From an uncultured Clostridiaceae bacterium (lineage in GTDB: Bacteria; Bacillota; Clostridia; TANB77; CAG-465), in NCBI GenBank assembly GCA_947169155.1, contig CAMVON010000004.1:1-64000 (forward strand): a DNA stretch of 64,000 nt. Reading direction: 5' to 3'. This document shows positions 19,294 to 34,135 of this stretch, in pieces; position 1 is the first letter of the stretch, and every line of letters begins with the position of its first letter. The translations under genes and the position numbers were made by a program. The notes below the pieces were generated by a model. It was not told the DNA's origin, made no database searches, and saw only the letters and a list, made by a program, of their open reading frames with translations.

Positions 19294-20841
19294 ATGTCAA
19301 AAAGTAGAACAGAAAACACAGTTAGAAATATTAGTGCTGGTTTATTTAATAGGATGATAACGATTATCTTACCATTCATCAATAGAACAGCAATATTATG
19401 GATATTAGGAACAGAATTTACAGGACTAGCTAGTTTGTTTTCATCAATATTAAACGTATTAAACCTTGCTGAATTAGGATTTAATACAGCAATAGTACAT
19501 AGCTTATATAAACCTATGGCAAATAAAGATGAAAAGAAAATATGTGAAACTGTCTCATTGTTTAAAAAAATATATAACATTATTGGAACAATAGTTTTAA
19601 TTGTAGGATTATTATTGGTGCCATTCTTACCATATTTAATCAAAGGAGAGTATCCAAATTCTATTAACTTATACACTATTTATATATTATACTTGGTCAA
19701 TTCAGCAATTAGTTATTACTTATTTGCGTATAAAGAATGTTTGTTAATCGCTGATCAAAGAGATGACATAGCTAAAAACATTAGAACTTTTGTTAATATT
19801 ATAAAATATATTTGTCAATTTATTGTATTATTAGTGACAAAAGATTTTTATCTATATCTCATTGTCTCTATATTTGGAACTATTTTAACAAATATATGTA
19901 TTCAATTTGCTACAGTAAAAATGTATCCGTTTTACAGGAAGATAAAAGGAAAGCAAAAAATTGGTAATGATCTAAAAAAACAAGTTCAAGGATTGATGAT
20001 TAATAAAATTTGTGACACTTTTAGAAACTCATTTGATTCTTTAATTATATCAAGTTTTATAGGCCTTACAGCAACTGCAATATACGGAAATTATTATTAC
20101 ATATATTCTGCAATATACGGAATAATGTTAGTGATATGTAATGCAATGAGTGCAAGTGTAGGAAATAGCATAGTCAAGAAAGATGAAAATGAAAATTATA
20201 AAGATTTATTAATACTATCACAATTGTTTTCGTGGATTCTTGGTGTAGCAACAGTATGTCTACTATGTTTATATCAACCGTTTATGAAAATTTGGGCTGG
20301 CAGTGATTTGCTTCTACCAACCTTTGATATGATATTGTTCTGTATTTATTTTTACATTATTAATATGAATAATATTAGAAACCAATATGTATCTGGCACA
20401 GGTATCTGGTGGAAACTTAAGATATCATATGTAATAGAAGCAATTTCAAATCTTTTATTAAATTTTATTTTAGGAAAACTATTTGGAATTACTGGAGTAA
20501 TATTAGCAACAATAATAACTATATTCTTATTTAATTATTTACAAAGAAATAAAGTACTTTTTAATAATTATTTTAAAAACAATAGTATTTTAGTATTTTA
20601 TAAAGAGCAATTTTATTATTTGTTTATAACAATTATTGCATCAACTATTTCCTATCTAGCATGCTTACTTATTAGAGACAATAGTATATTACATATTATT
20701 ATTAAAGGAATTATAGCCTTTTCAGTTTCTAATATAGTAATTGCACTAAGTTACATGTATACAAAGAGATTTAAAGATACAAAAGTAATGATTAATAGAA
20801 TTATTAATACTTTGCTCCATAAAAAGAAAGCAATTAAATAA
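19294..20841 (+). CDS. Repeat-unit flippase (Wzx-like, PST family)
   Basis: A 515-residue protein with about twelve to fourteen hydrophobic segments, the length and plan of polysaccharide transporters. The N-terminus (NTVRNISAGLFNRMITIILPFINRTAIL) and the segment FTGLASLFSSILNVLNLAELGF are typical of Gram-positive Wzx proteins. It would move the finished lipid-linked repeat unit to the outer face for the polymerase at 16186. AAAGGAATATAAT precedes the ATG. Confidence 0.9.
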   Translation: MSKSRTENTVRNISAGLFNRMITIILPFINRTAILWILGTEFTGLASLFSSILNVLNLAELGFNTAIVHSLYKPMANKDEKKICETVSLFKKIYNIIGTIVLIVGLLLVPFLPYLIKGEYPNSINLYTIYILYLVNSAISYYLFAYKECLLIADQRDDIAKNIRTFVNIIKYICQFIVLLVTKDFYLYLIVSIFGTILTNICIQFATVKMYPFYRKIKGKQKIGNDLKKQVQGLMINKICDTFRNSFDSLIISSFIGLTATAIYGNYYYIYSAIYGIMLVICNAMSASVGNSIVKKDENENYKDLLILSQLFSWILGVATVCLLCLYQPFMKIWAGSDLLLPTFDMILFCIYFYIINMNNIRNQYVSGTGIWWKLKISYVIEAISNLLLNFILGKLFGITGVILATIITIFLFNYLQRNKVLFNNYFKNNSILVFYKEQFYYLFITIIASTISYLACLLIRDNSILHIIIKGIIAFSVSNIVIALSYMYTKRFKDTKVMINRIINTLLHKKKAIK

Positions 20842-20858
20842 ATGAAAGGAATGAAATT

Positions 20859-21905
20859 ATGAATAAAATTAATTTAGAAAACAAAAACATATTTATAACA
20901 GGAACATCAGGATTCATAGGATATTATTTAGCAAAAAGAGTATTAACTGAAGTAGAAGGCGTTAAAGTAATTGGTCTAGATAATATGAATGATTACTATG
21001 ATGTAAGATTAAAAGAAGCAAGATTAAAAGATTTAGAACAATATTCAAATTATACATTTATTAAAGGTGATCTTGCAGATAGAGAATTAATAAATAAAAT
21101 ATTTGAAGAATATAAACCAAGTGTTGTAGTTAACTTAGCTGCACAAGCAGGTGTTAGATATAGTATTACTAATCCAGATGCATATATTAATTCTAACATT
21201 ATTGGTTTCTATAATATACTTGAAGCATGTAGATACAATCCAGTAGAACACCTAGTATATGCATCAAGTAGTTCAGTATATGGTGGAAATACTAAAGTGC
21301 CATTTTCAACTGAGGATAAAGTGGACAACCCTGTGTCACTTTATGCAGCAACAAAGAAAAGTAATGAACTATTAGCACATAGTTATTCTAAACTATATAA
21401 TATTCCATCAACTGGTTTAAGATTCTTTACAGTATATGGACCAGCTGGAAGACCAGATATGGCATACTTTGGTTTTACAAACAAACTAATTAAAGGTGAA
21501 ACTATTAAAATATTTAACTATGGAAATTGTAAAAGAGACTTCACATATGTAGATGATATTGTGGAAGGAATATTAAGAGTAATGCAAGGAGCACCAGAAA
21601 AGAAAAATGGGGAAGATGGATTACCTATACCACCTTATGCAGTATATAACATAGGAAATAGTAATCCAGAAAACTTATTAGACTTTGTGACTATATTACA
21701 AGAAGAATTAGTAAGAGCTGGAGTACTACCACAAGATTATGACTTTGAAGCACATAAAGAATTAGTACCAATGCAACCAGGAGATGTACCTGTAACTTAC
21801 GCAGATACAACACCACTTGAAAAAGATTATGGTTTCAAACCTAACACATCATTAAGAGAAGGTTTAAGAAAATTCTCTGAATGGTATAAAGAGTTTTACA
21901 TGTAA
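20859..21905 (+). CDS. UDP-glucuronate 4-epimerase-like SDR
   Basis: A 348-residue extended short-chain dehydrogenase/reductase. GTSGFIGYYLAKRV is the NAD-binding loop; DNMNDYYDVRLKEARL after strand 2 is characteristic of UDP-glucuronate epimerases; YAATKKSNELLAHSY holds the catalytic Tyr-x3-Lys. It should convert UDP-glucuronate to UDP-galacturonate, using the product of the dehydrogenase encoded next. Related epimerases for other UDP sugars cannot be excluded, but the paired dehydrogenase supports this reading. Confidence 0.9.
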   Translation: MNKINLENKNIFITGTSGFIGYYLAKRVLTEVEGVKVIGLDNMNDYYDVRLKEARLKDLEQYSNYTFIKGDLADRELINKIFEEYKPSVVVNLAAQAGVRYSITNPDAYINSNIIGFYNILEACRYNPVEHLVYASSSSVYGGNTKVPFSTEDKVDNPVSLYAATKKSNELLAHSYSKLYNIPSTGLRFFTVYGPAGRPDMAYFGFTNKLIKGETIKIFNYGNCKRDFTYVDDIVEGILRVMQGAPEKKNGEDGLPIPPYAVYNIGNSNPENLLDFVTILQEELVRAGVLPQDYDFEAHKELVPMQPGDVPVTYADTTPLEKDYGFKPNTSLREGLRKFSEWYKEFYM

Positions 21906-21937
21906 TTTTGATTTGTTAGTGAAAGGAGAAATATAGT

Positions 21938-23104
21938 ATGAAAATAGCAGTAGCAGGAACAGGATACGTTGGATTATCTTTAGCAACTTTATTAAGTCAA
22001 AAAAATGAAGTTTACGCTATAGATATTATTCCAGAAAAGGTTGATATGATAAACAAAAGGGTTTCTCCAATAAGAGATGAATACATAGAAAAATATTTTG
22101 CAGAAAAAGAATTAAACTTAACAGCAACACTAGATTACAAAGAAGCAATTAAAGATGCTGAATATGTTGTAATTAGTACACCAACAAACTATGATACAGA
22201 AACAAATTACTTTGATACATCTTCAGTAGAAGATATTATTAAAAAAGTAATTGAAGTAAATCCTAACGCAACAATGGTAGTTAAATCTACTATTCCAGTT
22301 GGATTTATTAAAGGTGTTAAAGAAAAATATAACATAGACAATATTTTATTCTCACCTGAATTCTTAAGAGAAGGTAAAGCCCTATATGATAACTTATATC
22401 CTTCAAGAATTATAGTTGGAGAAAAAAGTGAAAGAGCAACTATATTTGCAAACTTACTTAAAGAATGTGCATTAAAAGAAGATATAGATGTATTATTCAT
22501 GAATAGCACAGAAGCAGAAGCTGTTAAATTATTTGCAAATACATATCTAGCATTAAGAGTTGCATACTTTAATGAATTAGATACATATGCAGAAATTAAT
22601 GGATTAAACACAAAAGATATCATTGATGGTGTATGTTTAGACCCAAGAATTGGAACTCACTATAACAATCCATCATTTGGATATGGCGGATACTGTTTAC
22701 CAAAAGATACTAAACAATTACTTGCAAACTACAACAATGTACCACAAAACCTAATTAGAGCAATTGTTAGATCTAACAAAACAAGAAAGAACCATATTAC
22801 AGAAATGATAATGAGAAAAAATCCAGATGTAGTTGGAATTTATAGATTAACAATGAAATCTGAATCAGATAACTTTAGATCAAGTGCAATACAAGGTATT
22901 ATTAGAAGATTAAAAGATGAAGATGTTGAAGTAGTAATTTATGAACCAACATTAAAAGATGATACTTTTGCAGATTGTAGAGTAATAAAAGATTTCAAAG
23001 AATTCTCTAATGAATCAGATGTTATTATAGCAAATAGATTTGAATCTACATTAGAACCAGTAAAAGATAAAATTTATACTAGAGATATATTCTTTAGAGA
23101 TTAA
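21938..23104 (+). CDS. ugd: UDP-glucose 6-dehydrogenase
   Basis: A 388-residue protein, the length of the short E. coli-type enzyme. [19 protein letters not shown] is the NAD-binding loop; [23 protein letters not shown], and [14 protein letters not shown] with the catalytic Cys, are diagnostic. It oxidises UDP-glucose to UDP-glucuronate, the acidic donor for this polysaccharide and the substrate of the epimerase upstream. Last gene of the operon, followed by a terminator. Confidence 0.95.
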
Positions 23105-23169: not shown

Positions 23170-23217
23170 TTTAAATAGTAATATCAAAAATAATTATTTA
23201 GAGGGAGATTGATAAAC

Positions 23218-23898
23218 ATGCCAATGATAAACACACAATTTACAACATTAAGTTCAGAAAAATATAGTTATGAACTACTATTAAAATTATTAGAAACTTT
23301 AGATTTTGAAATTGAAGATTTTGCAAAAGAGAATAAAGTAGCAATAAGCTATTCTAATCCGGAGTATGAATTAGATGAAATATATGCAATCGCTACAATA
23401 CTATTTGGAGATGTTAAACTTAATTATTATGAAGAAACAGGTCATGATGTATCAGATTATTATTACAAAACAGAAACAGAAATAGATAACAAAGCATATA
23501 GGATAATTACATCAGAATATTGTTATGGAGATAACACTGTGTTTGATGGAGAATCTGTTTGGAAATATATAAAAGCTAAATGTGAAAGAAAAGCTAAAAA
23601 AGAGAACGTGGAAATTTGCTGGTATGATGAAGATGGAGAGCTTTATCCAGATAAAGATGAATTTAGTGATTTATGTAATGATGTTTTGGATGAGTTAGGT
23701 GGCTTAGAAAAAATTAGTCAAAAAATTAAAAATAAAAAGAAAATTAAAGTAAAAATTTATAAAAATATTGTAAAAGAGTTAATAAAAAGAGCAGATGAAC
23801 TTAATTATAAAGAATTAGAAGAATTATTTAATACAAAATTTAATGATTTACTTAATTCTGATAACGACAGCTATTTGTTTGAATATAAATATGAGTAA
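23218..23898 (+). CDS. Hypothetical acidic soluble protein
   Basis: About 226 residues, rich in Glu, Asp, Tyr and Lys, with no signal or membrane segment and no domain I recognise. The middle part is Tyr-rich (VSDYYYKTETEIDNKAYRI) and is followed by a mixed region and a helical Lys-rich C-terminus. Start: GGAG at 23204-23207 suits the ATG at 23218; an in-frame TTG at 23209 is too close. It has its own promoter and ends about 80 bases before the regulatory region of the Hxs operon, so a link with that operon is possible but unproven. Confidence 0.7.
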   Translation: MPMINTQFTTLSSEKYSYELLLKLLETLDFEIEDFAKENKVAISYSNPEYELDEIYAIATILFGDVKLNYYEETGHDVSDYYYKTETEIDNKAYRIITSEYCYGDNTVFDGESVWKYIKAKCERKAKKENVEICWYDEDGELYPDKDEFSDLCNDVLDELGGLEKISQKIKNKKKIKVKIYKNIVKELIKRADELNYKELEELFNTKFNDLLNSDNDSYLFEYKYE

Positions 23899-23975: not shown

Positions 23976-24002
23976 ATTTTGTACACATAAAAAGTACAAA
24001 AT
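23976..24002. promoter_or_regulatory. 27-bp palindrome at the Hxs promoter
   Basis: ATTTTGTAC at 23976-23984 and GTACAAAAT at 23994-24002 form a perfect inverted repeat with a 9-base centre, ending two bases before the -35 box. Position and symmetry suggest an operator for a dimeric regulator. Confidence 0.6.
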
Positions 24003-24003
24003 C

Positions 24004-24032
24004 TTGTGAAATCAACATAATTATAGTATAAT
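24004..24032 (+). promoter_or_regulatory. Promoter of the Hxs operon
   Basis: TTGTGA at 24004-24009 and TATAAT at 24027-24032, spacer 17, directly before the MORN-repeat gene. AATGTCGAAA at 24036-24045, just past the -10 box, matches 8 of 10 positions of a Spo0A box. Confidence 0.7.
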
Positions 24033-24058
24033 CTTAATGTCGAAAAAGGAGAAAAAAT

Positions 24059-24946
24059 ATGAAATTAAAAATTCTTGATAGAGATTTTTTAAAAGATAAG
24101 GGAAATGAAGAATTAAAAGACGAAAAAAATAGAAAAGGTAATAAAGATAAAAACAAAGTTGAAGTAGTTGAATCACCTATAGAAATTATAGAAAATGAAG
24201 ATATAGATGAAGAAAATAATGATAATATGAATGAAGAAGAATCAAGCTCAAGTATAAGAGATGTTACAAAGAAAATAATATTATGGGCTTTAGGGATTAT
24301 TATTATTTTATTAGGAGTAGTATATATAAGTAAAATAATTGTTCCAGCAATAATATTTATATTAGCTGGAATATTACTTTTACCTCCTGTTAGAAAGTAT
24401 TTTAAAGAAAACAAAACTATAAATGGTTTGGTATATGTTTTTCTTTTTATAGCACATATTGTATTTTATGCTAATATTCCAAGTGAAACAAACACATTCT
24501 CTAATACATCAAATATGACGCAAATTGTATTAGACACTTCTGCTGAGGCTTCAAATAAAGGCAAGTATACTGGACAAGTTGAAAGCGGTAAAAGAACAGG
24601 TCAAGGAACTTATATCTGGGAAGATGAAACAACTTATGTGGGTGAATTTAAAGATAATTTACCTAATGGAAAAGGAAAAATAACATTCTCTAATGGTGAA
24701 GTTTACGAAGGTGATTTTACTAATGGAAAGAAAAATGGAAAAGGAAAATATACATTTTCAAACGGTGATGTTTATGAAGGAGACTTTTCTCAAGATATAA
24801 TGAAGGGAAATGGAAAGTATACTTTCGCTAATGGAGACGTGTATGAAGGACAATTTGATAGTAATATGTTTAATGGAAAAGGAACATATACAAAAGATGG
24901 AACACCATACACTGGTACATGGGAAAATAATAAATTAAAGGAGTAA
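24059..24946 (+). CDS. MORN-repeat membrane protein of the Hxs operon
   Basis: A 295-residue protein. Residues 1-70 are very charged and acidic; three hydrophobic segments follow (about 73-92, 95-112 and 122-140); from about 165 to the end come about five MORN repeats of the GKG-x-YTFSNGDVYEGDF type. In bacteria MORN repeats are usually a surface or membrane-linked protein module; here they should lie outside if the N-terminus is inside. The gene ends four bases before hxsA, so it is the first gene of the operon. A role in displaying or anchoring the modified His-Xaa-Ser product is inference from position only. Confidence 0.85.
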   Translation: MKLKILDRDFLKDKGNEELKDEKNRKGNKDKNKVEVVESPIEIIENEDIDEENNDNMNEEESSSSIRDVTKKIILWALGIIIILLGVVYISKIIVPAIIFILAGILLLPPVRKYFKENKTINGLVYVFLFIAHIVFYANIPSETNTFSNTSNMTQIVLDTSAEASNKGKYTGQVESGKRTGQGTYIWEDETTYVGEFKDNLPNGKGKITFSNGEVYEGDFTNGKKNGKGKYTFSNGDVYEGDFSQDIMKGNGKYTFANGDVYEGQFDSNMFNGKGTYTKDGTPYTGTWENNKLKE

Positions 24947-24950
24947 TTTA

Positions 24951-25385
24951 ATGGAAGATAACAACAAAATTAAAAAGAAGTTAAATGACTTCTTATATGA
25001 AGAAGAAGGTAATATAAGCAGAGGTAAAATTCTTACTGTTGGCTCATTACTACTGGTTGCAGGAATGTTCTTTGCCGGAGATATCTGGGCGGCACATAGA
25101 TCACATTCATCACATTCATCACATAGATCACATTCATCTGGAGGTGGCGGTGGTGGTGACCATTATAGCCATGTAAGTCATCAAAGTCATACAAGCCATA
25201 ACAGTGGAAGTTATCATGCAAGTCACAATAGTCATAGTAATTCACACGCAAGCCATAATAGCCATAGCAATACTCATACAAGTAGCACACATAGTAATGT
25301 ACAACCAGCACATACAAATGTTGTGCCTCCACCAAAGCCAACTTTTAACACGCCACAAACACCAAAAGGAATACCAGAGTTATAA
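24951..25385 (+). CDS. hxsA: His-Xaa-Ser repeat protein HxsA (modification substrate)
   Basis: A 144-residue protein. Residues 1-25 are charged (ending YEEEGNISRGK), residues 27-43 form one hydrophobic segment (ILTVGSLLLVAGMFFAG), then IWAA leads into HRSHSSHSSHRSHSS, the exact HxsA signature. A Gly run follows, then a second region of spaced SH pairs (VSHQSHTSHNS ... HASHNSHSN), and a Pro/Thr-rich tail. HxsA proteins are the proposed peptide substrates of the radical SAM enzymes HxsB and HxsC; the product is unknown. The short charged leader before the hydrophobic stretch looks like a class III (prepilin-type) signal, fitting the peptidase gene downstream. It sits directly between the MORN gene and hxsD. 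Confidence 0.9.
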   Translation: MEDNNKIKKKLNDFLYEEEGNISRGKILTVGSLLLVAGMFFAGDIWAAHRSHSSHSSHRSHSSGGGGGGDHYSHVSHQSHTSHNSGSYHASHNSHSNSHASHNSHSNTHTSSTHSNVQPAHTNVVPPPKPTFNTPQTPKGIPEL

Positions 25386-25396
25386 AGGAGATTATT

Positions 25397-25780
25397 ATGG
25401 ATAATTATAAAATAGATAAAGATAATATTACTTTTTATATTGATACAAATATATATAATGACGCAGTAATAAAAAAAGCAATATATAACTTTATAGAGGA
25501 TAGAAAAGTTATTCTTAATAAAATTAATGAAAAAACTGTAGTTGTTGTTTCTAAAAAAAGTAATGATGATATAGAAAATTTTGTAAAAAATTTTTATAGT
25601 GAATTGCTAAATGAATCACTAAGATTTGAAGTTATGAATGAAACTAAAAATATTAGAGAGTTAATTCTTGGTAGAGCATTATATTCTACATGCATTGATA
25701 CTGAAGAAAACGAAGAAACAACAGAAAAAGATAACAAATACAACATTAATGATATTGCCAAGAATTGGTTTGAGGAATAA
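25397..25780 (+). CDS. hxsD: His-Xaa-Ser system protein HxsD
   Basis: A 127-residue soluble protein between hxsA and the peptidase gene. It has ITFYIDTNIYNDAVIKKAIYNF and, later, a strand with VVVVSKKSNDD and a helix with FVKNFYSELLNESLRFEV, the two-part plan of HxsD, a small protein found with HxsB and HxsC and expected to bind or deliver the substrate leader. The C-terminal part is acidic. The family call rests on size, composition and its place beside HxsA, B and C rather than on a strict motif. AAAGGAG precedes the ATG. Confidence 0.8.
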   Translation: MDNYKIDKDNITFYIDTNIYNDAVIKKAIYNFIEDRKVILNKINEKTVVVVSKKSNDDIENFVKNFYSELLNESLRFEVMNETKNIRELILGRALYSTCIDTEENEETTEKDNKYNINDIAKNWFEE

Positions 25781-25782
25781 AT

Positions 25783-26802
25783 ATGTTAGTAACACTTGAA
25801 ATATTACTTACACTATTTACATGTATAATATCTACAATTACTGATATTAGAAATAAAAAAATATATAATAAAATACTAATAGTTACAAATATTGTAGCTA
25901 TTATTTTATATGTATTGTTTTATAAGCAAATTGAAATAAGTTTTATAAGGCAACATGTTTTTAACATATTAACTACTATAATAATTAGTTTCATGTTTTT
26001 TTACTTTAACATATGGGCAGCAGGAGACGCTAAGTTATTTATAACTCTGTCAGTGTGTATACCAGTTCAATTATTTGAAAGAAATCCAATTAGTATATTT
26101 CCATCAGAATTACTACTAATACTAATTTTTAGTTCAGCTTTTATATACATACTATTTGAGACAATATATTTATTCATAAAAGACAAAAGTAGATTTGAAA
26201 AGAACGAAAGAGATAATAAAAATATTAAAGAAACAATAACAAATTTTGTTTTGACTACATCTGTATTAACATTAATTAATAATATACTATTTTATTTATT
26301 ACCAGAATTTATGAGTCAAAATATCATTTTATCTATCATTATATCAATGTTTATAGGAATAAGTCTAAATGAAATTAAAGATAAAAAAGAAATAATTATT
26401 ATAGTAACACTATTACTAAATATTGTACTATTTATAATAGCAGGAGTACATCTTACTTGGCTAAATTTAGTTTATTTACTTGTTTCAATGATAACTATGG
26501 AATTTAGAAAAGTGTCTGGTAAATATAATTATAAAGAAATTGAAACGGATAAAGTACAAGTTGGTATGATATTAAGCGTCGAAAGCTCTATGTTGTTTAG
26601 AAATTCTAGAGTTAAAAATCTACCAGGATTATCAACAGAACAAACAGATTCTAGATTAAAAGATAAAGAGGTAGATGCTATAAAAAGATGGGCAAAAACA
26701 AAAAAAGGAATAAATCATATGATAATTGTAAAATATATTCCATTTGCACCATTTATGTTATTAGGATATTTAGAATTTATAATTTTGAAAGTGATATTAT
26801 AG
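25783..26802 (+). CDS. A24 prepilin-peptidase-like membrane protein
   Basis: A 339-residue protein with about nine hydrophobic segments. Two aspartates sit in the positions expected for A24 aspartic proteases: TDIRNKKIYNKI after the first segment and AAGDAKLFITLSV (the GxGDxK site) at about residue 80. A hydrophilic stretch near 230-300 is not part of classical prepilin peptidases, and there is no N-methylase cysteine domain. No pilin genes are nearby. The operon position suggests that it cleaves the leader of HxsA, inside the membrane face; that is inference. It begins 2 bases after hxsD and ends 8 bases before hxsC. Confidence 0.75.
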   Translation: MLVTLEILLTLFTCIISTITDIRNKKIYNKILIVTNIVAIILYVLFYKQIEISFIRQHVFNILTTIIISFMFFYFNIWAAGDAKLFITLSVCIPVQLFERNPISIFPSELLLILIFSSAFIYILFETIYLFIKDKSRFEKNERDNKNIKETITNFVLTTSVLTLINNILFYLLPEFMSQNIILSIIISMFIGISLNEIKDKKEIIIIVTLLLNIVLFIIAGVHLTWLNLVYLLVSMITMEFRKVSGKYNYKEIETDKVQVGMILSVESSMLFRNSRVKNLPGLSTEQTDSRLKDKEVDAIKRWAKTKKGINHMIIVKYIPFAPFMLLGYLEFIILKVIL

Positions 26803-26810
26803 GAGGAAAA

Positions 26811-27971
26811 ATGAACAATCGACCATTTATATTAAAAGGAAATATAACAATCAATAGTAATAAAGAATATATAATAGGTACTGTTATAATTAATCAAAAA
26901 GTAGATGAAGACAAAAGTAAATATGTATTGGTATTAGATAAAGAACACAAAGATTTATTTGAAAAAGGATACGAAGGTTATATATTTACAAATTGGTTAC
27001 CAGATAATTGTAAAGAAATAGATTATGTAACTGAACTATTTGGAATAGAAACATTAATAAACTATGATGTTATAGAATTCAATGATGATTATGTTAAAGT
27101 TTTATATAGAGATGATTCGACAGATAATTTTATACAAGTAACTAATCAATGTAATTCTAATTGTATAATGTGCCCTGATGCTGAAGAAGTAAGAAACACA
27201 AGACAAAAAATTAGTATAAACAGATTGTTACGCATTATTGATTGTATTCCAAATGATACAGAACATATATGTATAACTGGTGGAGAACCAGGAATGATAA
27301 AATATGATCTCATTAAAGTATTAAAAAAATGTAAAGATTGTTTACCAGAGACTCAATTTTTACTTTTATCCAATGGGAGAATTTTTTCAGATCATGATTT
27401 CACAGAAGAATTTGTAAAAAACATACCATATAATATAAGAATTGGAATACCATTATATTCAGATATCGCAAAAGAACATGACGCGATAACTCAAGCTACA
27501 GGAAGTTTTGAGCAAACAATAACCGGTTTAAATAATTTACTTAAACACAATTTAGATATAGAAATTAGAGTTGTGGTTATGAAAAAAAATTATCAAAAGT
27601 TATCAAGTATTTCAAATTTTATATGTAATAATTTAAATAAAGTAAATCACGTTAATTTTATGGCATTAGAAATGACAGGAAGTGCATATAAAAACAAGGA
27701 AAATGTATGGGTTAATTTCAATGAATCTACTATAGATTTGTATAATGCTTCAACAACATTAATAAAAGAGGGAATAGATGTTAATTTATATAATTTCCCA
27801 ATATGTAAAATAGATAAAAGACTTTATAGCCTAGCACAAATGAGCATTAGTGACTATAAGGTTAGATATTTAGATAAATGCAATAATTGTATAGTAAAAG
27901 AAAAATGTGGAGGCTTTTTTCCTTCAACAATGAATATTCAAAATAGTGAGGAAGAGAAATGTACAAATTAA
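26811..27971 (+). CDS. hxsC: Radical SAM maturase HxsC
   Basis: A 386-residue protein. After an N-terminal region of about 110 residues without known motif, FIQVTNQCNSNCIMCP carries the CxxxCxxC motif for the SAM-bound [4Fe-4S] cluster, followed by HICITGGEPG (the GGE motif that holds SAM) and a TIM-barrel-like remainder. The C-terminus has a short cysteine group (KCNNCIVKEKCGGFF) for an extra cluster, as in HxsC. With HxsB it is expected to modify the His-Xaa-Ser repeats of HxsA. AGGAGG lies before the ATG. Its last 13 bases overlap hxsB. Confidence 0.9.
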   Translation: MNNRPFILKGNITINSNKEYIIGTVIINQKVDEDKSKYVLVLDKEHKDLFEKGYEGYIFTNWLPDNCKEIDYVTELFGIETLINYDVIEFNDDYVKVLYRDDSTDNFIQVTNQCNSNCIMCPDAEEVRNTRQKISINRLLRIIDCIPNDTEHICITGGEPGMIKYDLIKVLKKCKDCLPETQFLLLSNGRIFSDHDFTEEFVKNIPYNIRIGIPLYSDIAKEHDAITQATGSFEQTITGLNNLLKHNLDIEIRVVVMKKNYQKLSSISNFICNNLNKVNHVNFMALEMTGSAYKNKENVWVNFNESTIDLYNASTTLIKEGIDVNLYNFPICKIDKRLYSLAQMSISDYKVRYLDKCNNCIVKEKCGGFFPSTMNIQNSEEEKCTN

Positions 27972-29359
27972 ATTATTTTAATTTTGATAAAAAAAGTGGA
28001 AAATATCTATTAACAAATGACTTAGGTAAGTATACTTTTGTCGAAGCAAAATTTTTAGATAAAATTATAAAAAAGAAAGAACTACCACAAAATTTAGAAA
28101 ATGAGTTATTAGAAAAGAAATTTATATATAAAGAAGATGATGAAATTTTTGCTCAGGAATCAGCAAAATATGTAAGAAGCCAGAAAAATTACCTGTTTTT
28201 GGCACCATCTTTGCATATTTTTGTTGTAACTAAAAATTGTAATTACAGATGTGTATATTGCCAAGCAGGGAACTTAAATCAGGAAGAAAAATATAACATG
28301 GATAAAGAAACAGCCAAGAGAAGCGTAGATATTGCTTTATCTTCACCAAGTAAAAATCTCACTTTTGAGTTTCAAGGTGGAGAACCATTACTAAATTTTG
28401 AAATTATTAAATATATAGTTGAATATAGCAAATCCGAATGCAAAGACAAACATATTGAGTATAATATTGTTACAAATCTTTCTTTGCTTACAGATGATAT
28501 GATTAAATTTATAAAAGAAAATAACATTGCTATTTCTACATCACTAGACGGAGATTACAAACTACAAAATATAAATAGACCTTATCCTAATAATGATTCT
28601 TATAATGCAACTTTAAAAGGAATAAATAGATTAAAAGAACACGGAATTAACACATCTGCAATTCAAACTACAACTAAATATAGTTTAGATCAATATAAAG
28701 AAATTGTAGATGAATACATAGAACAGGGATATACAGGAATATTTATTAGACCATTGACTCAACTAGGAAAAGCAGATAAAAATTGGAACACAATAGGCTA
28801 TTCTGCAGAAGAATATTTACTGTTTTATAAAAACGTATTAGAATATATTATTGATTTAAACATAAATAAAAAAATCAATATTTCTGAAAGACATACTGCA
28901 TTATTTTTAAAGAAAATAATGGACAACTTTCCTGCAAATTATATGGAATTAAGATCCCCATGTGGCGGAGTACTTGGCCAAATAGCATATTATTATAATG
29001 GAGATGTTTATACTTGTGACGAAGCAAGAATGCTTGGAGAAATGGGAGATGATATTTTCAAGATTGGAAATGTTGATGAATTGGACTACGAAAAAATTAT
29101 TAATTCACCTACAACAGATGCTTTAAGTGTTTCTTCTTGTATAGAATGTTTAAGTAAATGTCACAATTGTGTATATTCGCCATATTGTGGCACTTGTCCG
29201 GTTGTAAACTATGCACAAGAAAACAACATATTTAGTAGAATACCAAATAACTATAGATGTAATATATATAAAGGCATGATAGACACAATATTTGAATATC
29301 TAAATAAAAGTGATGAAAAAATAATGGAAGTATTTACTAGATGGGTTAACGAAGAATAA
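27959..29359 (+). CDS. hxsB: Radical SAM maturase HxsB (SPASM type)
   Basis: A 466-residue enzyme. The N-terminal 75 residues hold a short basic domain, perhaps for leader recognition. HIFVVTKNCNYRCVYCQAG has the CxxxCxxC cluster motif and FEFQGGEPLLNFEII the SAM-binding glycines. The C-terminal third has a SPASM-like set of cysteines (RSPCGGVLG, VYTCDEARML, SCIECLSKCHNC, YCGTCPVV, RCNIYKG) for auxiliary iron-sulfur clusters, as in peptide-modifying enzymes. It closes the operon with hxsC overlapping its start and a strong terminator after it. Confidence 0.92.
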   Translation: MYKLNYFNFDKKSGKYLLTNDLGKYTFVEAKFLDKIIKKKELPQNLENELLEKKFIYKEDDEIFAQESAKYVRSQKNYLFLAPSLHIFVVTKNCNYRCVYCQAGNLNQEEKYNMDKETAKRSVDIALSSPSKNLTFEFQGGEPLLNFEIIKYIVEYSKSECKDKHIEYNIVTNLSLLTDDMIKFIKENNIAISTSLDGDYKLQNINRPYPNNDSYNATLKGINRLKEHGINTSAIQTTTKYSLDQYKEIVDEYIEQGYTGIFIRPLTQLGKADKNWNTIGYSAEEYLLFYKNVLEYIIDLNINKKINISERHTALFLKKIMDNFPANYMELRSPCGGVLGQIAYYYNGDVYTCDEARMLGEMGDDIFKIGNVDELDYEKIINSPTTDALSVSSCIECLSKCHNCVYSPYCGTCPVVNYAQENNIFSRIPNNYRCNIYKGMIDTIFEYLNKSDEKIMEVFTRWVNEE

Positions 29360-29363
29360 ATAG

Positions 29364-29405
29364 AAAGCTATAAATTAAGAAAACCTTAATTTATAGCTTT
29401 TATTT
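29364..29405 (+). terminator. Terminator of the Hxs operon
   Basis: A 15-bp stem: 29364-29378 pairs with 29386-29400 (AAAGCTATAAATTAA with TTAATTTATAGCTTT), T-rich exit. Its position just before the converging gene at 29468 suggests use from both sides. Confidence 0.9.
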
Positions 29406-29467: not shown

Positions 29468-30109
29468 TTATTTTTCCTGTCTATTCTTAATCCACAAAAT
29501 CCCTTTACCAATTCCAAATGCACCACCAACAATAAGTATAAACCAAATAATGCTCATATATATTGGTTGTTTATATACCATAAGGAATGGATATGGACCT
29601 TCATATACTTTTAGTATATTTAGAGTAATAAATACTATAGCATAAGCTATTGTAAAGTAAATTGCTCTAAAATTATCTTTTAATCCTTTTATATTATGGC
29701 TTTCAAAGAACATGAAAGATATAAATGTAATGATAGGACAAAGTGTATGATAAAACAAGTTAGATCCTAAAAAGAATATCCAAATTATTATATCTTTTCC
29801 ATAGTATGGTGTAAGTATAAATACAACTACTAAAAATGTAACAAGTAAAGATAGTGTAGCAGAGTATTTTAATATACTAACCCATTTAGGAATTTCTTTG
29901 CTTTTATTTTTTATATTTCGTATTAAAAATACTACATATATTGCAGCACTAATTAATGCAAAATAATTACTTAGTTGTGTATAGTATTCCCATGCAGGAT
30001 AACCCATGCCTGTAATTGTTTTAACAAGTCCTGTAATACCTAATATAACTAGTATAATATTAAGTATTAAAGCAATAATTTTATTCTTTTTTTGTTTTGT
30101 TTCTTCCAT
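29468..30109 (-). CDS. Pr6Pr family membrane protein
   Basis: A 213-residue protein with six hydrophobic segments. The motif YYTQLSNYFALI after the first segment, the TPYYGKDIIIW stretch, NLFYHTLCPIITFISFM with its His in the fourth segment, and YEGPYPFL before the fifth are those of Pr6Pr proteins. The family has no established function; it is related to FAR-17a/AIG1-like lipid hydrolases only distantly. It has a short leader with GGAG and is transcribed towards the Hxs operon. Confidence 0.8.
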   Translation of the reverse strand: MEETKQKKNKIIALILNIILVILGITGLVKTITGMGYPAWEYYTQLSNYFALISAAIYVVFLIRNIKNKSKEIPKWVSILKYSATLSLLVTFLVVVFILTPYYGKDIIIWIFFLGSNLFYHTLCPIITFISFMFFESHNIKGLKDNFRAIYFTIAYAIVFITLNILKVYEGPYPFLMVYKQPIYMSIIWFILIVGGAFGIGKGILWIKNRQEK

Positions 30110-32129: not shown

Positions 32130-32948
32130 CTAAGATTTTAGTTCTATGATTCCAAGATCAATAAGAGATAAACAAAACATACTGATAAAAAAATTATAGT
32201 CATTTGATTCCTCATACTTAAGTATTTTTTTATTGAAAATAGAAATATCATCAATATCTATTGAATTTATATCAATACTATTTAGTTGATTTATAAATTT
32301 ATCTACTAGAGAATTAATACAACTAAAGTTTTTAATTTTATTTGTTGCATATCCATTTTTTGAACAATAATCTTTGATAGGGCCAAAATCTTTATTATAA
32401 TCATTTTGAGTAAATAAAGACATCAAAAGGATTTCTATACAAGGATAGCTAACTAGTAGCATACCACCCATCTCAAAATCCGAATCATCATCAGTACCAA
32501 AAGAGTTGTTAAATTTTTCAAAAAGTTTAATTATTATGTCTTTACATTGTTGCATGTCTTCAGGTCTATCTCCGTCAAAAAGAAAATACTTTCTTGAATT
32601 AAAGGCATCAACTTTATAATCATAGTTGCTTATACTACGATTAATTAAATCAAAAGTTGAATTATAGTATTCTTCTAAGGAAATAGTAGGGTTTGAAATA
32701 ATGCTCTTGATGTTACTATTAATTGAGTTTATAACATATACAATCGAATTACTATTATCTTTGCTAACAAAGCAACGAACTTTATCTTTAGATCTACGTT
32801 TTTGAATAAGATTGTATCCAAGAAGCTTAGTAAATAGTTTGTATATTATATCAAATTCTGCACCTTCTCCCTCAACTATATATATTACTTTACCAATATT
32901 TTTTGAAGTATTAATATAATAATCGTTACTTAAGTTTAGGTAAGCCAT
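32130..32948 (-). CDS. RloB/AbiLii-like TOPRIM protein
   Basis: About 272 residues. YIVEGEGAEFDIIYKLF near residue 25 supplies the TOPRIM glutamate, YFLFDGDRPED near 150 the Asp-x-Asp pair, and SYPCIEILLMSLF near 195 matches the S-N-P-x-x-E-x-x-L segment of RloB-like proteins. TOPRIM proteins of this kind act as nucleases together with a paired ATPase (AbiL, RloAB, and more distantly PARIS). The ATPase gene lies immediately upstream and overlaps it by about 23 bases. ATG at 32948 follows GGGG at a normal distance; a GTG at 32960 is also in frame. Anti-phage action is inferred from the pair. Confidence 0.65.
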   Translation of the reverse strand: MAYLNLSNDYYINTSKNIGKVIYIVEGEGAEFDIIYKLFTKLLGYNLIQKRRSKDKVRCFVSKDNSNSIVYVINSINSNIKSIISNPTISLEEYYNSTFDLINRSISNYDYKVDAFNSRKYFLFDGDRPEDMQQCKDIIIKLFEKFNNSFGTDDDSDFEMGGMLLVSYPCIEILLMSLFTQNDYNKDFGPIKDYCSKNGYATNKIKNFSCINSLVDKFINQLNSIDINSIDIDDISIFNKKILKYEESNDYNFFISMFCLSLIDLGIIELKS

Positions 32949-34059
32949 CAAATACCCCACTTAAATACATCTTTTCCATATTTTGAGATTCACGTGGCTT
33001 TAAGTCACTTACTCTTGTTAAAACAGTTCCTTCGTTGGTAAAGTCAGTAGTATAAATTTGATCAGGTCGTAGTAAATTTGTTTTTAATAGATTTGTTGAA
33101 TGAGAGACAACAAATAACTGAGCTCTTTTTGAATGTTTCATAAAATATCTAATAAAACATTCTTCTAATTCATTATGAAAGCCACTTTCAAACTCATCGA
33201 TTATTAGTATAGCATCATTTTCTATAGCATCTAACATATATGGAGCAAGAATAGCAATAGCGTTATTACCTGTTGATTCTAATGCATATGGTAAAGCAAA
33301 ATCAATATTTTTCTTTTGAAAGAATAATACTTTTTTATCGCCAAAATTAAAGCCTACATTTTCTCCTTTATATTTGCTTGTATATAATAATTTTTGATTA
33401 TATCCTATTTCATTTAAAAAATTATTTACTTTCTCTGTACCTTGGTTTTCATAATATTTAAATGAAATTATTTCATTAGCTGCATATCCCATAATTGTTT
33501 TAGCGTCTTGTAGTACATATAAAGATTTTTCTAATTTATTATACCAGTATGCTAAAACATCGTTATCTGTAAAATGAGTGTCAAAATATGCTCTTCGAAC
33601 GTAAGATTGTGTTGATGGTAAGTTTTCAGTAACAATATTAGATTCGGGTAGAATATATGATCCACTTGATTTTACTCTATTAATCACTTCTTTATTATCA
33701 ATAAAGACTTTTTCAGAAAGAATTCCATTTTCTTTTCTAGTAATTGTAATCTCATAATTAATTATAGAAGACAAAACTTTAAATTCATAATTAATTTTTG
33801 TATCATTTGGTGAAAACAAGCAAGTATAATTAATAAAATCAATAGGTTTATTAAATACTAATAAATCTAAAAGAAAAATCATTGATGCTAGTACATTGCT
33901 TTTACCTGATGCATTCCCTCCGATGAATAAAGCACCTTTCAAAATATTATCATTAGTTTTATTGGTATCATTCAATATTTCATAACCAGTAGAATTAAAA
34001 TCTATTGTTGTTTTGTTTTTTATTGATTTAAAGTTTTCTAATGTTATTTTAGATAACAT
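32926..34059 (-). CDS. AAA ATPase, RloA/AbiLi-like
   Basis: About 377 residues. It starts MLSKITLENFKSIKN, the usual opening of SMC/ABC-like ATPases, with a Walker A at FIGGNASGKSNVLASM, a middle insert, then a Walker B at AILIIDEFESGFHNELEECF and the switch histidine in LFVVSHSTNLL. Proteins of this type (AAA_15/AAA_21, COG1106-like) sense infection or foreign DNA and control a partner nuclease. GAAGGATG is upstream of the ATG at 34059; the frame is open for 24 more codons but without a ribosome site. First gene of the pair. Confidence 0.85.
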   Translation of the reverse strand: MLSKITLENFKSIKNKTTIDFNSTGYEILNDTNKTNDNILKGALFIGGNASGKSNVLASMIFLLDLLVFNKPIDFINYTCLFSPNDTKINYEFKVLSSIINYEITITRKENGILSEKVFIDNKEVINRVKSSGSYILPESNIVTENLPSTQSYVRRAYFDTHFTDNDVLAYWYNKLEKSLYVLQDAKTIMGYAANEIISFKYYENQGTEKVNNFLNEIGYNQKLLYTSKYKGENVGFNFGDKKVLFFQKKNIDFALPYALESTGNNAIAILAPYMLDAIENDAILIIDEFESGFHNELEECFIRYFMKHSKRAQLFVVSHSTNLLKTNLLRPDQIYTTDFTNEGTVLTRVSDLKPRESQNMEKMYLSGVFDGLPKLK

Positions 34060-34135
34060 AAAATCACATCCTTCACTATAATTATAACACCAAAGGCAAT
34101 ATAATGCAACTTTTTTACAGAAAATCGACATTTAA

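Follow-up and report, generated by a model that had tools for sequence, protein, structure and literature searches.

The six-gene Hxs operon

The subject of this work is a group of six genes in a 64,000-nucleotide stretch of contig CAMVON010000004.1 from an uncultured Clostridiaceae bacterium (assembly GCA_947169155.1; source genome 1.57 Mb, 96% complete), a stretch which we refer to as the window. All six genes lie on the plus strand in the order MORN-hxsA3-hxsD-A24-hxsC-hxsB and are tightly packed, with spacings of 2 to 11 bases and a single 13-base overlap. An earlier note on this DNA had placed them in exactly this succession and had taken them for a His-Xaa-Ser (Hxs) operon, in which radical S-adenosylmethionine (SAM) enzymes modify a peptide. 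Curated protein models bear this out, as HxsB (27959-29359; 466 amino acids, aa) scored 511.2 bits against a TIGR03978 cut-off of 370, HxsC (26811-27971; 386 aa) 324.7 against 267.9 for TIGR03977, and HxsD (25397-25780; 127 aa) 61.2 against 50 for TIGR03976. With E-values from 1e-16 to 1e-153 for HxsD, HxsC and HxsB, and with the whole cluster conserved elsewhere, a chance origin is excluded. The CxxxCxxC motif noted in the two radical SAM proteins is present in both (CNSNCIMC, CNYRCVYC).

One gene name had to be changed. The gene for the repeat protein (24951-25385; 144 aa with 15 H-x-S motifs) had been called hxsA, and it does encode the HRSHSSH repeat; however, the protein remains below the cut-off of the classic HxsA model TIGR03979 (17.1 versus 121.65 bits), while passing that of NF038309 (103.8 versus 65 bits). 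It thus belongs to the curated HxsA3 family, whose model covers the precursor only, and we call the gene hxsA3. The two further members reported before are where they were said to be. Between hxsD and hxsC lies a gene for a membrane protease of the A24, or prepilin-peptidase, family (25783-26802; 339 aa), which matches Peptidase_A24 (PF01478) at 36.6 bits, the gathering score being 26.5. The first gene of the operon (24059-24946; 295 aa) encodes a membrane protein with hydrophobic segments at about residues 66-142, judged by hydropathy, and with MORN repeats in five C-terminal stretches (PF02493, 112.9 bits).

The operon is therefore real and conserved, and it is an HxsA3-type variant of a system known in silico, not a new kind of system. 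The novelty shifts to the class: HxsA3-type systems should as a rule carry a dedicated A24 protease, in most cases together with a MORN protein. We know of no Hxs system whose product and chemistry have been established, and no biochemical paper on these systems was found in the open-access literature. Haft and Basu (cited in PMC9062424) defined the classic system in silico, and its set consists of HxsA or HxsA2 with HxsB, HxsC and HxsD (TIGR03976-TIGR03979, NF038296). The operon studied here resembles it in that HxsB, HxsC and HxsD pass the same models and that the H-x-S precursor is apparently exported. It differs in gene order, which in classic loci is mostly A-D-B-C or D-B-C-A, and in its precursor. 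In classic precursors an ordinary signal peptide at the N-terminus is followed by a spacer and the repeats, and a PG_binding_1 domain is often present, whereas HxsA3 has a leader ending in EEEG and a constant membrane module which the repeats follow immediately.

Association of A24 and MORN genes with HxsA3

HxsA3 systems are rare and patchily distributed. HxsB exceeded its cut-off in 2 of 398 genomes sampled from the phylum; HxsA3 was found in 3/391 genomes of a class sample, in 8/287 of the order, and in a single genome each of the families of G144 (151 genomes) and G948 (38 genomes). Where HxsA3 does occur, the other two genes are almost always beside it. Among 12 HxsA3 loci (the window and 11 others, which span distant Clostridia and one metagenomic contig) A24 is present in all and MORN in 11. 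The gene order of the window recurs in L036, L037, L038, L123, L124, L126 and the metagenomic contig L141, while a second order, hxsD-hxsD-like-A24-hxsC-hxsB-MORN-hxsA3, is found in L035, L134 and L125, the extra HxsD-like gene of L125 being a weak match only. No A24 or MORN match was found in about 22 classic loci of HxsA or HxsA2 type, that is, in six plasmid loci (Aeromonas, Nostoc, Leptospira, Adhaeribacter, Paraburkholderia and Methylobacter) and 16 loci of a viral collection (L142-L157), some of which run off the end of their contig, so that absence carries less weight there.

A profile of this A24 subfamily gave the same picture at the level of whole genomes. In the 287 genomes of the order it matched exactly the eight with HxsA3, with one copy in each, located at the operon, and none of the 279 others (Fisher p about 1e-15). 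Six of the eight had contributed to the profile, hence the independent weight lies with G561, G613 and the 279 absences. In pairwise comparison the A24 and MORN proteins also diverge in step with HxsB (Spearman 0.84 and 0.78, respectively; the Mantel test gave 0 and 3 of 2000), as expected of genes travelling together. We consider A24 (always) and MORN (usually) to be near-obligatory, standing parts of the HxsA3-type systems examined. The two genes had previously been described as unusual extras. They do lie outside the defining hxsABCD set, but in HxsA3-type loci they are not unusual, and the survey of co-occurrence that had been suggested ties them to this type and not to Hxs loci at large. 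NCBIfam holds no model that either associated protein matches above its cut-off, and we found no mention of the association in the open-access literature.

Several observations were made on the loci outside the window. A scan of genome contigs with HxsB returned 80 loci, mostly with other radical SAM enzymes, and HxsB itself only at L039 and L040. At L039 (8143-11880) HxsB has no other Hxs genes nearby, and its gene lies two genes upstream of one that encodes a TPM-domain protein with a His- and Ser-rich C-terminus (SGHGSGGHSAGHSSHSAGHSSHSSGGGGGHRF); this protein may represent an alternative type of substrate. A scan of viral contigs with the HxsC of the window alone gave no relatives. The clusters of the second order in L134 (8226-17000) and L035 (1794-6808) run on into shared genes, encoding a DUF5050 protein, a protein of 255-259 aa and a coiled-coil-like protein, to which L134 adds a ClpB-like AAA protein, a Ser/Thr kinase, an FHA protein and a radical SAM activase-like protein. 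An extra HxsD-like gene (NF038315) adjoins hxsD in L040 (2410-2607), L134 (3078-3296), L035 (11870-12112) and L142 (1013-1249), and is absent from the operon of the window. In a plasmid collection, HxsB relatives of Hxs type occur on 355 records, of which 316 are from Klebsiella and 282 are predicted to be conjugative; judged from these records, Hxs is a common cargo of mobile elements.

Precursor, enzymes and surroundings

The twelve HxsA3 sequences vary in length outside one common module. A leader ends in [ED]-E-[GA] and is followed by [NS]-I; from there 27 residues (28 in L141), which include a hydrophobic helix, close in [AVI]-x-[AG], and straight after this constant segment the repeats begin with [AGT]-H-x-S-H. 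In the window the leader comprises residues 1-20 (24951-25010) and ends in DFLYEEEG, and the constant segment (25011-25091) stops directly before AHRSHSSH. The EE[GA][NS]I motif is conserved in all 12 homologues, and the residue before the proposed cut is Ala instead of Gly in one of them, L141. Two possible processing points, at a fixed distance from each other, thus bracket the membrane segment. The first, facing the cytosol, may be prepilin-peptidase-like; the second, just outside the membrane, may be of the signal-peptidase-I type. Together with its 27-residue module, the EE[GA][NS]I motif is a ready search signature for further members. In L040 (6111-6881), from Lachnospiraceae XPB1003, HxsA3 has a C-terminal extension with no match in Pfam, in which two units (ASFYATNNPDV..HFIDYGMAEGR and SVYQANYPDL..HYKDTGKAEGR) resemble each other.

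All eight members of the A24 set (A5) match PF01478, while the divergent orthologue of L141 reaches 19.0 bits, which is below the gathering score. In all sequences compared the catalytic Asp pair is invariant, with D21 in a TD context and D82 in [AP]GD.KL, the latter being a GxGD-like context. The protein thus resembles the prepilin peptidases of the FlaK, EppA and PilD type in its PF01478 domain and in both catalytic residues; its only sequence match in the PDB is archaeal FlaK (3S0X, E 0.053), and its C-terminus matches EppA weakly (E 0.01). It differs from them in being tied to genes of peptide modification, in having its own conserved C-terminal domain, and in that no pilus ATPase was found in its genome. 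Throughout the source genome (96% complete) no protein exceeded the cut-off for the pilus or secretion ATPase PF00437 (best 19.6 versus 24.9 bits), which is present in 13 of 14 control genomes. A pilus role for the A24 protein of the operon was rejected on this ground as unlikely, and a dedicated, non-pilus use fits better.

HxsB exceeds the gathering scores of the radical SAM domain PF04055 (70.7 versus 29.5 bits) and of the SPASM domain PF13186 (23.3 versus 21.5 bits). Its structure model (predicted local distance difference test, pLDDT, 89.4) aligns over residues 82-466 with anSME (Z 36.2), over 391 residues with TigE (8vpo, Z 27.3), and over 402 residues (5-456) with CteB (5wgg, Z 35.0), the last alignment including the N-terminal domain of CteB. 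Residues 7-52 of the model form three strands and two helices. Residues 1 to about 75 of the model thus form a CteB-like domain, which may correspond to the recognition element (RRE) of ribosomally synthesized and post-translationally modified peptides (RiPPs) and may bind the leader. CteB and TigE are, like HxsB, SPASM peptide maturases which align with its model, but identity is only about 22-23%, and HxsA3 has neither Cys for thioethers nor repeats of the TIGSVS/TVGG type. By analogy with related maturases, we favour a His/Ser-centred modification, either a cross-link or a dehydrogenation, located on the side chains of His and Ser or between them. HxsD was considered as an RRE and rejected, as its model (pLDDT 83.8) shows a ferredoxin-like alpha/beta sandwich followed by long helices at the C-terminus, and its best Z was 7.6, to unrelated proteins; its sequence gave nothing meaningful against the PDB. 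PADLOC matches of HxsB to prokaryotic viperins reflect general radical SAM similarity, and a reading of the operon as a defence system was dismissed.

In every locus with a MORN gene the protein has, by hydropathy, at least one hydrophobic segment near the N-terminus and the MORN repeats at the C-terminal side, which suggests that the repeats lie outside the cell. The MORN protein of L141 (1954-2922), a viral-collection contig, also has a PG_binding_1 domain (56 bits), a domain likewise found within long classic HxsA proteins themselves. Envelope attachment may therefore have moved from precursor to partner, and we infer that the precursor itself provides it in classic systems and the partner protein in the HxsA3 type. 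The suggestion that the product is displayed at the membrane or exported gains from the hydropathy, the invariant leader and helix module, and these PG_binding domains of relatives, and it may be correct.

The operon may plausibly be served by a single promoter, as had been claimed. A promoter-like site, TTGTGA-17-TATAAT (24004-24032, plus strand), does lie 26 bases 5' of the first start codon, but such sites are no more frequent in this AT-rich DNA than in shuffled DNA. A terminator-like hairpin with a 17-bp stem and a T run (29363-29401, plus strand) marks the end of the operon. Directly 5' of the promoter-like site is a perfect 9-base inverted repeat, ATTTTGTAC-N9-GTACAAAAT (23976-24002), possibly an operator; a conserved operator was rejected, since the repeat was not found upstream of related operons. 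The flanking genes (23209-23898 and 29468-30109) have no match in the 27 other genomes of the genus that were searched, and the operon thus sits in a variable region for which no empty insertion site can be defined. Further upstream (19294-23104) are polysaccharide genes assigned by eye, namely those for a flippase, an epimerase and a UDP-sugar dehydrogenase. On the minus strand, at 32130-34131, two genes form an AbiL-like defence pair: one encodes an AAA ATPase that matches AbiLi at 171 bits, and the product of the other resembles AbiLii weakly.

A possible maturation route and its alternatives

We think it fairly probable that the operon encodes a radical SAM system of six components, whose product is a ribosomally made and then modified peptide, and that it works along the following lines. 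HxsA3 would be the precursor, recognized at its leader by the RRE-like domain at the N-terminus of HxsB. With the aid of HxsD, HxsB and HxsC would then act on the His-Xaa-Ser repeats while these are still cytosolic, probably in the His/Ser-centred manner favoured above. The constant segment of 27 residues would next take the precursor into the membrane, and the A24 protein would cut after EE(G/A), in the way prepilin peptidases do, and so remove the leader. This would yield a pilin-like product with outward-facing repeats, which signal peptidase might later release by a cut just ahead of the repeats, while the MORN protein would serve as an outward-facing companion holding or scaffolding the product at the envelope. 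The more specific part of this proposal, namely a dedicated A24 aspartyl leader peptidase of the GxGD type giving a membrane-anchored, pilin-like and His/Ser-modified surface peptide with a MORN envelope partner and without pilus machinery, is one we put forward tentatively, with a little less than even confidence.

Several points weigh against this proposal. The Glu+5 of typical prepilins is missing from HxsA3, in which also the hydrophobic stretch begins about six residues past the proposed cut and not at once; no prepilin-type signal model of Pfam or NCBIfam matches HxsA3 at E up to 1, and its leader resembles archaeal class III signals only loosely (G↓N-I-S versus G↓Q-x-S, the arrow marking the cut). 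HxsB has no RRE match at the sequence level, the RRE-like assignment coming from the model and its alignment range. A second, more typical A24 gene lies elsewhere in the genome, and L040 has the second gene order without a MORN gene. Finally, the signal-peptidase-I-like site just ahead of the repeats could account for all processing. Housekeeping signal peptidase I would then cut there, for example at DIWA↓AHRSH, and free the modified repeat domain, after which A24 would degrade the leftover leader and helix in the manner of a signal peptide peptidase, or else it would act on another protein. Signal peptide peptidases do belong to the GxGD proteases; moreover, in 12 of 12 homologues [AGT]-H comes straight after a membrane segment ending in [AVI]-x-[AG], which fits the -3/-1 rule, and the distance from leader to site is constant. 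On the other hand, such processing leaves unexplained the near-invariant EE[GA][NS]I, which lies on the cytosolic side and far outside the helix, and does not account for the lack of a neighbouring A24 gene where classic HxsA proteins carry ordinary signal peptides. We regard it as unlikely, albeit worth serious attention, and the two cuts may both occur.

Two further explanations concern the partners and the product. That A24 and MORN are passengers, or serve the envelope in unrelated ways and just happen to lie in the operon, could be argued from their absence from the defining Hxs set, from how widespread both domains are and from the second A24 gene. Yet chance company is strongly disfavoured by an association that recurs in both gene orders and in distant families among the 12 loci (A24 in all, MORN in 11), by exact co-occurrence in the 287 genomes and by correlated divergence, and we consider it very improbable. 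The main role of the repeats might instead be that of an exported surface peptide which binds metal (Zn, Cu or Ni) or is adhesive, with a light or local radical SAM change and no cross-linked scaffold. As many as 15 H-x-S motifs in the HxsA3 of the window would suit this, and a copper-binding RiPP with a His-to-butyrine cross-link, made by another enzyme class, has been described (PMC10206099). Two dedicated maturases argue rather for dense modification, and no metal-handling genes were identified beside the operon. Although compatible with the logic of the operon, a role of this kind seems improbable to us.

Were the A24 protein indeed to act as a leader peptidase, as we tentatively propose, a comparison with epipeptides would suggest itself. 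EpeX is a radical SAM-modified peptide. The EpeX/EpeP system is likewise a RiPP system with a dedicated membrane-embedded protease, but EpeP is an intramembrane M50 metalloprotease, whereas here an aspartyl A24 protein stands with two radical SAM enzymes and a repeat-protein substrate; a review from 2023 on the leader proteases of RiPPs lists EpeP as the sole intramembrane case and names no A24, prepilin or aspartyl protease (PMC10885120).

The HxsA3 subtype is a self-contained unit of precursor, leader, two maturases and an accessory protein, and it also offers, as candidates, a leader peptidase whose catalytic residues are known and an envelope partner. Should A24 prove to be that peptidase, an intramembrane aspartyl protease would join the RiPP processing toolkit, and the prepilin-peptidase fold would be separated from pili.

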